Source: Corynebacterium hansenii (GTDB lineage: Bacteria; Actinomycetota; Actinomycetes; Mycobacteriales; Mycobacteriaceae). From it: a DNA stretch of 64,000 bases. Positions within the stretch are counted from its first letter, which is position 1. Every line of letters starts with the position of its first letter. Below the pieces are notes generated by a model. The model saw nothing but the letters and a program-made list of their open reading frames with translations. It ran no database searches and was not told where the DNA came from. Shown here piece after piece: positions 59,405 to 62,768 of the stretch. The stretch covers positions 1,612,001 to 1,676,000 of the forward strand of contig NZ_CP047211.1 in assembly GCF_030408795.1 (NCBI RefSeq), read 5' to 3'. The position numbers and the translations under genes are program-made.

Positions 59405-61516
59405 GTGAGCACTGCCGCGCCCAACGCACGCACGCAGGCCGAAGGATCGCCGCGCGATCCGTGGGAGGGGTTCGCCGGCGACCGGTGGCGTGAGTCCATC
59501 GACGTCCGGAATTTCATCCAGCACAACTACGCGCCTTACGACGGCGACGCGTCGTTCCTGTCCGGCCCCACCGACAAGACGCTGCGCGTGTGGGATCACC
59601 TGGAGAAGAACTACCTGTCGGTGGAGCGCGAGAAGCGCGTCTACGACGTCGACACCACCACCCCGGCGGACATCGACGCGTTCCCGGCGGGGCACATCTC
59701 CGAGGACGACGACGTCATCGTCGGCCTGCAGACGGACGTCCCCCTCAAGCGCGCCATGATGCCCAACGGCGGCTGGCGCATGGTGGAGACCGCGATCAAG
59801 GAGGCCGGCAAGGAGGTCGATCCGCGGGTCAGGGAGATCTTCACCAAATACCGCAAGACCCACAACGAGGCCGTCTTCGACGTCTACACCGACCGCATCC
59901 GCGCGGCCCGCAGGTCGCACATCATCACGGGCCTGCCCGACGCCTACGGCCGCGGCCGCATCATCGGCGACTACCGCCGGGTGGCGCTCTACGGCGTCGA
60001 TCGGCTGATCGAGGAGAAGGAGGCCGCGAAGTCCGCCGTCTCCGGCCGAGGCTTCTCGGAGCACTGGGCGCGCTACCGCGAGGAGCACGCCGAGCAGATC
60101 CGGGCGCTGAAGAAGCTCAAGGCGATGGCGGAGACCTACGGCTTCGACATCTCCGGCCCCGCCACCACGGCGCAGGAAGCGGTGCAGTGGACCTACTTCG
60201 GTTACCTCGCGTCGGTGAAGTCGCAGGACGGCGCAGCCATGTCCATCGGCCGCCTGTCGGCGTTCTTCGACCCGTACTTCGAACGCGATCTCGCCGCGGG
60301 CCGGATCACCGAAACGGACGCCCAGGAGATCATGGACGCGCTGGTGATCAAGCTGCGCATCGTCCGCTTCCTGCGCACCATCGACTACGACCAGATCTTC
60401 TCCGGCGACCCCTACTGGGCGACGTGGTCCGACGCCGGCTTCTCCGACGACGGCCGCCACATGGTCACCAAGACCGCGTTCCGCCTGCTGCAGACGCTGC
60501 GCAACCTCGGCCCCGCCCCGGAGCCGAACATCACCGTGTTCTGGGACCCGCAGCTGCCCGCCGGGTACAAGGAATTCTGCTCGGCCATCTCCATCGAAAC
60601 GTCGTCGATCCAGTACGAGTCGGACGCCCAGATCCGCGATCGATGGGGCGATGACGCCGCGATCGCCTGCTGCGTCTCCCCGATGACCGTCGGCAAGCAG
60701 ATGCAGTTCTTCGGCGCGCGCGTCAACGCGGCGAAGGCCCTGCTCTACGCGCTCAACGGCGGCCGCGACGAGGTCACGGGCGTCCAGGTGGTGGAGGGCC
60801 ACGAGCCCATCGCCGGCGACGGCCCGCTGGACTTCGACGAAGTCTGGGCGAAGTACGAGGACATGCTGGACTGGGTGATCGGCACCTACGTCGAGGCCCT
60901 GAACATCATCCACTGGTGCCACGACAAGTACGCCTACGAGTCCATCGAGATGGCGCTGCACGACTCCGACATCATCCGCTCAATGGGCTGCGGCATCGCC
61001 GGGCTGTCGATCGTCGCGGACTCGCTGTCCGCCATCAAGTACGCCAAGGTCACGCCGGTGCGCGACGACACCGGGCTGATCGTCGACTACGTCACCGAGG
61101 GCGACTTCCCCGTCTACGGCAACGACGACGACCTGGCCGACGACATCGCCGCGACGATCGTCCACACCGTCATGGCGAAGATCAAGGAGATCCCGCTCTA
61201 CCGCGACGCGATCCCCACCCAGTCGGTGCTGACCATCACGTCGAACGTGGTCTACGGTCGCGCCACCGGCAACTTCCCCTCCGGCCACCGCGCCGGCACC
61301 CCGTTCGCGCCGGGCGCCAACCCCGAAAACGGCATGGACACCCACGGCATGGTCGCGTCCATGCTGTCGGTGGGCAAGCTCGATTACGAGGACGCGCTCG
61401 ACGGCATTTCGCTGACCAACACCATCACCCCGTCGGGCCTGGGCCGCACGAAGGACGAGCAGGTGGCGAACCTGGTCGGCATCCTCGACGCGGGCTTCAT
61501 CATGGACGGCGAGTAG
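59405..61516 (+). CDS. pflB: Pyruvate formate-lyase core lacking the glycyl-radical domain
   Basis: A 703-aa protein that aligns with PFL from its N-terminal [22 protein letters not shown] to the segment [19 protein letters not shown], then stops. The active-site pair is Cys422-Cys423 in [20 protein letters not shown], equivalent to Cys418-Cys419 of E. coli PFL. A normal PFL continues for about 60 more residues with the RVSGYAV glycyl-radical motif; that part is absent here and is encoded by the next gene. GTG 59405 has AAAGG upstream and leads directly into the conserved start. It should convert pyruvate and CoA to acetyl-CoA and formate only together with the small subunit. Confidence 0.93.
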
Positions 61517-61619
61517 CCGCGCCACGCCCGGGCCACCACCACGCCCCCGAACGCAACCGACGCCGAAACAACCGATGCCCGCACCACCCCGCCGGGCACG
61601 ACACGACAAGGAGACCCCG

Positions 61620-61871
61620 ATGTCCGCCAAGACCTTCGACGAGCGCCTCGCCGACATGAAGGCGCAGCGCACCGCCAACAACGCCGGTTCCGGCCTGTAC
61701 CACGCCAACATCAACGTGCTGGACAAGTCCACCCTCGAGGATGCGATGGCCAACCCGGAGAAGTACCCGAACCTGACGGTCCGCGTGTCGGGATACGCGG
61801 TGAACTTCGTCAAGCTCACCGCCGAGCAGCAGCGCGACGTCCTGGACCGCACCTTCCACGAAAGCGCGTAG
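61620..61871 (+). CDS. Separate glycyl-radical subunit of pyruvate formate-lyase
   Basis: An 83-aa protein. Residues about 27-83 match the C-terminal domain of PFL and of E. coli GrcA (YfiD): [21 protein letters not shown], then RVSGYAVNF with the radical Gly at about residue 63, then [13 protein letters not shown]. Residues 1-26 ([20 protein letters not shown]) are unrelated to PFL and look like a helical docking segment. AAGGAG lies 6 nt before ATG 61620. The gene starts 104 nt after the pflB stop and is followed after 6 nt by pflA. Unlike GrcA it has no long N-terminal part and pflB lacks any copy of this domain, so it is a required subunit rather than a repair factor. Confidence 0.93.
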
Positions 61872-61877
61872 GCGCCC

Positions 61878-62768
61878 ATGGCCGACGGCCTGAATCGGAA
61901 AGTCACCGTCGCCCCCTCGCGGGGCCCGCGGGTGCGCGGCGCCGCGCAGGGGTTGGGCGGCGTGCCCGGCCCCGCCGCGCCCGGGGACGACGTCGCCGAG
62001 CACAATCGCAGGGCGCTTTTCGACGCCCGCCGCACCGGCGACATCGGTCTGGTCCATTCCTGGGAGCTGGTCACCTCCGTCGACGGTCCCGGCACGCGCA
62101 TGACCCTGTTCATGTCGGGCTGCCCGCTGCGCTGCAAGTACTGCCACAACCCGGACACGATGGAGTTGCGCGAGGGCACGCTCGAGCGCGTCGAGGACGT
62201 CATCGCCCGGGTGAAGCGCTACCGCACGGTCTTCCGCGCCTCGGGCGGCGGGCTGACCATTTCCGGCGGCGAGCCGCTGTTCCAGCCGGCCTTCGTCAAG
62301 CGGGTGCTGGCGGCGGCGAAGGAAGCCGGCATCCACACGGCAGTGGATACGTCGGGCAACCTCGGCCACAGGCTCAGCGACGGGGAACTGGACCTCGTCG
62401 ACCTGTTCCTGCTCGACGTGAAATCGGGGCTGCCGGGGACCTACGAGAACGTGACCGGCCGGCAGCTCAAACCGACGCTGGAGTTCGGCGAGCGCCTGGT
62501 CGCGCACGGGAAGAAGATGTGGGTCCGGTTCGTGCTGGTCCCCGGGCTCACCGATGATCCCGCGAACGTCGAGGCGACCGCCGACATCGTCGCCCGCTGG
62601 GCCGACTGCGTCGAACGGGTGGAGGTCCTGCCCTTCCACAACATGGGCGCCGACAAGTGGGCGAACCTGGGCATGACCTACGAGCTCGGCGACGTCCGCC
62701 CGCCGACGAAGGAATCGCTGGAGCGGGTCCGCGACGTGTTCCGGGCGCGCGGGCTGACCACGTACTGA
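61878..62768 (+). CDS. pflA: Pyruvate formate-lyase-activating enzyme
   Basis: A 296-aa radical-SAM protein with the CxxxCxxC cluster site CPLRCKYC (Cys82, 86, 89), ASGGGLTISGGEP and GMTYELGDVRPPTKE. It makes the glycyl radical on the small subunit using SAM and an Fe4S4 cluster. It has about 50 extra residues before the usual start (MADGLNRKVTVAPSRGPRV...), Gly/Pro/Arg rich; an internal start is possible but ATG 61878 is the first available and 6 nt after the small gene. Neighbour order core, radical subunit, activase supports one operon. Confidence 0.92.
   Translation: MADGLNRKVTVAPSRGPRVRGAAQGLGGVPGPAAPGDDVAEHNRRALFDARRTGDIGLVHSWELVTSVDGPGTRMTLFMSGCPLRCKYCHNPDTMELREGTLERVEDVIARVKRYRTVFRASGGGLTISGGEPLFQPAFVKRVLAAAKEAGIHTAVDTSGNLGHRLSDGELDLVDLFLLDVKSGLPGTYENVTGRQLKPTLEFGERLVAHGKKMWVRFVLVPGLTDDPANVEATADIVARWADCVERVEVLPFHNMGADKWANLGMTYELGDVRPPTKESLERVRDVFRARGLTTY

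Follow-up and report, generated by a model that had tools for sequence, protein, structure and literature searches.

Pyruvate formate-lyase of Corynebacterium hansenii and its relatives is encoded as a catalytic core and a separate glycyl-radical protein, probably an obligate two-subunit enzyme made by gene fission

Can a pyruvate formate-lyase (PFL) work when its catalytic chain stops before the glycyl-radical loop, and where would its radical then come from? The question is raised by the pflB locus of Corynebacterium hansenii, in a stretch of 64,000 nucleotides (nt) of contig NZ_CP047211.1 (positions 1,612,001 to 1,676,000; the whole stretch is hereafter the window). An earlier note, made from the sequence alone, had claimed that pflB ends ahead of the radical loop, that a separate gene of 83 amino acids (aa) with its own Shine-Dalgarno sequence supplies the motif RVSGYAV, and that pflA comes next. 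The coordinates and family models bear this out:

59405..61516, + strand: pflB core of 703 aa, the catalytic barrel of PFL lacking its radical loop; GTG start at 59405, TAG at 61514-61516; matched by TIGR01255, PF02901 and the first part of PF01228
60668..60673, + strand: codons of the catalytic cysteine pair, in IACCVS; seen in the sequence and invariant in 54/54 split-A rows
61517..61619, + strand: intergenic gap of 103 nt with an AAGGAG Shine-Dalgarno sequence at 61608-61613; seen in the sequence; 3-287 nt in 141 relatives
61620..61871, + strand: gene of the small glycyl-radical subunit, 83 aa; ATG start; matched by NF008341 (GrcA2) and by PF01228 positions 65-106, with column conservation
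61878..62768, + strand: pflA, radical-SAM activating enzyme; TIGR02493 at 292.9 bits (cut-off 231.75)

The pflB protein ends in [15 protein letters not shown], just ahead of the strand that precedes the glycyl-radical loop, and matches TIGR01255 with 970.4 bits over positions 2-679 of the 744 in the model, below the cut-off of 994.2. The radical glycine is not on this chain, as the core stops at 61516 and RVSGYAV lies in a separate gene, whose frame in the window differs from that of pflB and in which the radical Gly58 is encoded at 61791-61793. The small protein begins with a conserved N-terminal helix, followed by a strand, the radical loop and a C-terminal helix, and scores 161 bits against NF008341, above the cut-off of 145. 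The Pfam Gly_radical model (PF01228) is divided between the chains, with positions 1-65 in pflB and 65-106 in the small protein, so that the cut falls inside the domain as Pfam defines it. Compared with E. coli PflB (TIGR01255), the core shares about 56% sequence identity and the active-site residues, and the locus shares a dedicated pflA, whereas the radical glycine, near the C-terminus of a single chain in E. coli, is here on a separate gene product. The adjacent cysteines and the active-site residues of PFL are present in all 54 rows of the window's split type (split A), the pair in IACCVS being equivalent to E. coli C418-C419. A full-length PFL elsewhere in the genome would have told against the earlier note, and in the 3.098-Mb one-contig genome no second Gly_radical or PFL-like match was found besides the two pieces. 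We consider it very probable that gene fission has here given rise to an obligate PFL of two subunits. Upstream of the locus, neither an FNR-like nor a CRP-like palindrome was found.

The arrangement was followed through a sample of 201 Corynebacterium genomes, of which 102 match Gly_radical. Fifteen of the 102 owe a one-piece match to an anaerobic ribonucleotide reductase (motif in 15/15, two confirmed by NCBIfam), and five of these 15 have no other Gly_radical match, leaving 97 genomes with a PFL radical piece and 104 without. At the 97 loci examined (96 fetched, plus the window) PFL is split in 96, namely 95 fetched loci and the window, and fused in one (G122, locus L121). The earlier note's claim of a radical-bearing subunit that is always separate thus held up, with 96 of the 97 genomes split and, in C. 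hansenii, an intact catalytic core. Another assembly of this species (G175) has an arrangement identical in kind. Only part of the core is seen in two of the 95 split loci, L120 and L209, and the contig of the latter begins inside the core. Full-length Gly_radical matches of the L009 type were considered as a second PFL and ruled out, being anaerobic ribonucleotide reductases; this reductase (RRLCGYLG; L003-L017) is the only other glycyl-radical enzyme found in the genus sample by the Gly_radical model.

Beyond the genus, the best 80 of 435 relatives confirmed in a species-representative collection include 78 split loci and two fused ones (L107, and L047, which comes from genome G122). By record title the genera are Corynebacterium, Rothia, Actinomyces, Ancrocorticia, Actinobaculum, Propionibacterium, Brachybacterium, Gulosibacter, Varibaculum, Arcanobacterium, Sanguibacter and others. 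One locus titled Tissierella sp. (L109) is nearly like Varibaculum L106 and is probably mislabelled. In a class-wide sample the PFL model was matched in 47 of 394 genomes: in 40 the match covers the entire model uninterrupted by a stop, three are split (G000, G121, G281) and four fragmentary, which indicates that other Actinomycetes commonly have a PFL of one chain. The pair of a short pflB and a small RVSGY gene, for which the earlier note had proposed a search in Corynebacterium and elsewhere, is widespread. The split is a conserved design, not peculiar to one strain.

For finer comparison we used 141 non-redundant split loci of the window type (L275 and L280 were excluded from all counts and trees). 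In 141/141 the core extends no more than 5-20 residues (median 6) past the motif NLVGILDAG, and pflA lies within 800 nt downstream of the small gene in 137, the other four comprising two contig ends and two loci with pflA farther off. Among the first 24 residues of the small protein R9 and M13 are invariant, and R17 (99%) and K14 (93%) nearly so. In 12 of 12 pairs nonsynonymous divergence (dN) of the small gene was below synonymous divergence (dS), with ratios of about 0.03-0.29. These data bear on the idea that the locus is decayed, the end of pflB having been lost by mutation and the pair no longer forming a working PFL. Such decay would fit the lack of PFL in about half of the genus sample (104/201), which marks the enzyme as dispensable, and locus L120 (G171), where the stretch examined contains no more of the core than its last 99 residues ahead of the small gene, looks rearranged or decayed. 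Purifying selection on the small gene, invariant catalytic residues and a single cut point across many genera make decay scarcely credible as an account of the split.

Read-through of the stop codon, or frameshifting, might still yield a fused enzyme, and the spacing and frames of the two genes bear on this possibility. As such a reading would allow, core and small gene share a frame in 55 of the 141 loci, and one species (L047/L121) has lost the stop. Nevertheless, the frames differ in the other 86 (frames 0/1/2 in 55/42/44), the window included, and the distance from core stop to small start ranges from 3 to 287 nt (median 45) and is never an overlap. The small gene also begins at a start codon of its own (138 ATG, 3 GTG) behind a strong Shine-Dalgarno sequence, with a median of -7.1 kcal/mol. 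This is slightly stronger than the -6.4 of the core, being the stronger of the two in 81/139 loci and equal in 14 (Wilcoxon p 0.0046); since the start sites were chosen by the same score, we claim no excess. We regard a fused product as very improbable. Open frames of about 800 aa, at first candidates for many fused PFLs, were ruled out as such, for these loci show a stop and then the small gene in the same frame. A single frame broken by sequencing error, which the earlier note had named as a threat to its reading, is excluded by the G175 assembly and the 141 loci, which show the same arrangement; the two genes are out of frame in independent assemblies.

Another account takes the small protein for a true autonomous spare part that rescues damaged PFL, with the short pflB as an incidental feature. 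Its NCBI name, GrcA2, autonomous glycyl radical cofactor, says as much, and like E. coli GrcA/YfiD (TIGR04365; PDB 6owr), which it resembles over 58 residues, it is a small separate protein with a strand, a radical loop and a helix. GrcA, however, rescues an otherwise complete PFL, whereas the present genome has no intact PFL to rescue and the core is without its glycine in 96/97 genomes. Moreover, the small protein scores only 88.5 bits against TIGR04365 (cut-off 170), and its gene stands between the core and pflA in 137/141 loci. The N-termini differ as well: that of GrcA is 60 residues long and disordered (PMC8683613), while that of the small subunit is a conserved helix of 24 residues. Taken together, these differences make a spare-part role very improbable.

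For the two-subunit enzyme we propose the following mechanism. The large subunit would provide the PFL barrel with its catalytic cysteine pair and no radical glycine, and the 83-aa small subunit would give the last barrel strand, the glycyl-radical loop and the C-terminal helix, docking at the place that the C-terminal domain occupies in ordinary PFL. PflA from the neighbouring gene would install the radical on the small subunit, from which it would pass to the core cysteine, and pyruvate and coenzyme A (CoA) would be converted to acetyl-CoA and formate. The N-terminal helix of the small subunit, with its invariant R9 and M13 and near-invariant R17, is absent from fused PFLs and is a candidate substitute for the lost covalent tether.

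Experiments with E. coli proteins lend this scheme plausibility. In the work of Andorfer et al. (PMC8683613), the engineered pair of tPFL(1-695) and YfiD was as active as wild type once activated. By alignment the core of the window ends about 3 residues beyond E. coli residue 695, so that the natural and engineered cuts nearly coincide; both pairs have the radical on a separate chain, in the natural pair by prediction. In addition, an E. coli strain with PflB G734A made formate with GrcA and none without it, as tabulated in PMC12338860. Together these results indicate that PFL can work with its radical on a separate chain, and that binding is what nature would need to add.

Several points weigh against the proposed enzyme. 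First, tPFL:YfiD binding was not seen by isothermal titration calorimetry and the radical was 32-fold less than for cPFL:YfiD (PMC8683613). That pair is a laboratory construct, in contrast to the natural one, and its weak binding and poor activation imply that the natural pair needs something extra. Second, a model of the linked pair has the fold of E. coli PflB, although the chains were linked by stop read-through and the model used 34 full-length PFL rows, so that docking is expected by homology and does not amount to independent evidence. Third, no FocA-family formate channel was found in the genome, leaving formate export unexplained. The anatomy and evolution of the two-chain PFL are well supported, and its complex formation, activation, catalysis and use of the helix we infer.

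The origin of the split was examined in a 94-row tree of the core, built without the C-terminal columns under a simpler model, and in a 48-row core tree under a mixture model, the bootstrap of which was not fully settled. In the former, the 52 split rows of the window type and both fusions form one clade (Shimodaira-Hasegawa approximate likelihood-ratio test 100) inside the actinobacterial single-chain PFLs, on a stem of 0.68; the mixture-model tree agrees (support 100/100, stem 0.91). Compared over 55 columns, the small subunits resemble the C-termini of single-chain PFLs from actinobacteria (0.733, n=33) more than those of other PFLs (0.683, n=9) or E. coli GrcA (0.686), suggesting fission rather than recruitment. 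Across the split 22 core positions changed, among them E336W with others next to W333, and a cluster at 619-623, while nine active-site positions are unchanged.

Both fusions appear within this history. The fused L047/L121 adjoins a split Corynebacterium and reads through where its relatives stop, with the small-gene start region kept; the core stop has become a sense codon, giving one frame over the core, the former gap and the small gene, whether really or by sequencing error. In L107, which passes the TIGR01255 cut-off with a score of 1061.2, ILDAG runs straight into [11 protein letters not shown], and the locus is nested in the split clade of the 94-row tree. Against L107 as a re-fusion, 28% and 19% of bootstrap trees leave split A one clade without it. 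Natural fusions of this kind are a classical sign of two separate proteins acting as one enzyme.

A second split type was found in a phylum-wide sample of 346 genomes, from which 17 PFL loci of two Coriobacteriia-like families (f59 and f80) were fetched. In 17/17 the core matches the model from 1-665 to 1-670, with a separate open reading frame from 655-665 on, the cut lying 15-20 residues earlier than in the window type, and the small protein is GrcA3-like. Collinsella aerofaciens falls among f80, its pair being named pflB and grcA3 in RefSeq, and a record labelled Subdoligranulum variabile (Clostridia) also has this type (all loci of the type: L242-L259 except L245, L273, L274). The second type forms its own clade (support 100). 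When all split rows were held as one clade, the approximately unbiased (AU) test gave p 0.0017 under the mixture model and 4.5e-5 with long and odd rows removed; against two origins, the simpler model did not reject a single clade (AU p 0.18, 94-row tree). Split PFL thus appears to have originated at least twice independently under the mixture model, a single origin being acceptable under the simpler one. For the second type, radical-domain identities to GrcA (0.755), to other full-length PFLs (mean 0.747) and to the best of them (L276, 0.811) do not separate fission from GrcA recruitment.

What, then, might the split be for? The earlier note had suggested that it may let an aerobic bacterium swap an O2-damaged subunit. 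In this scenario the radical cofactor would have turned into a dedicated subunit open to exchange, separately in the Actinomycetes (GrcA2) and in the Coriobacteriia-like lineage (GrcA3). A cut by O2 would then cost the cell no more than the small subunit, which could be renewed, and would spare the 79-kDa core, making the GrcA type of repair permanent. This purpose seems to us possible, at rather less than even chances. The split design also occurs in groups that we take to be anaerobes, the Coriobacteriia-like families and Actinomyces. Alternatively, the two-subunit enzyme could reflect a neutral fission fixed later by co-adaptation, with no benefit in oxygen, and to this we give not quite an even chance. 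The long stem (0.68 and 0.91 changes per column) and the 22 diagnostic core changes after the split agree with neutral fission, as do the two natural fusions (L107, L047), which show the split to be reversible; on the other hand, two origins with different cut points and retention in many genera hint at selection, though they do not show it. If the pair is indeed a natural, obligate two-subunit PFL with its radical on a separate chain, the oxygen-repair question could be tested directly with split and fused versions, and the pair would offer a ready system for studying inter-chain radical transfer and the recognition and activation of a radical-bearing loop.

These results have implications for annotation, which misleads for many genomes, as the core misses the PFL cut-off and a partner that would be indispensable is called an autonomous cofactor; metabolic models may consequently treat either as optional. 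The NCBIfam models GrcA2 (NF008341) and GrcA3 (NF038360) correspond exactly to the small subunits of the two split types, yet their names are silent on a neighbouring PFL without its own radical glycine, and the term autonomous cofactor fits poorly where the genome has no intact PFL. We found no description of a naturally split PFL in the open literature, subscription papers and preprints lying outside the search. Two recent structures titled Formate acetyltransferase (PDB 38lb and 38la), compared by sequence alone, are also PFL cores without the radical domain and are nearer to the second split type than to the PFL of the window. They are matched by neither small subunit and are not among the 50 structure matches listed for the linked-pair model, and 38lb aligns over the entire Coriobacteriia-like core, its cysteine-rich tail included. 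Others are probably working on such enzymes.

Several observations stand beside these results. An acidic tail rich in cysteine usually closes the cores of the second type, often with a CxCC-like cluster such as IENPxCGCC (L242, L243, L244, L252, L257, L258), and PDB 38lb has a similar tail. In a transcriptome of vaginal bacteria, PMC11979175 places grcA (-17.96) and pflB (-14.31) of Fannyhessea vaginae together among the most reduced transcripts; this pair is presumably of the split type. Locus L260 (G218), whose PFL matches model positions 1-637, has a divergent tail with no radical domain close by and looks like a broken gene. Separate radical-domain proteins also occur in phages, Y06I of phage T4 being one. 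Of 50,697 phage records, 1534 match the radical domain of the small protein, and many of these carry the annotation hypothetical protein; the EBPL protein, the one phage record read, has a radical domain near-identical to that of E. coli GrcA.
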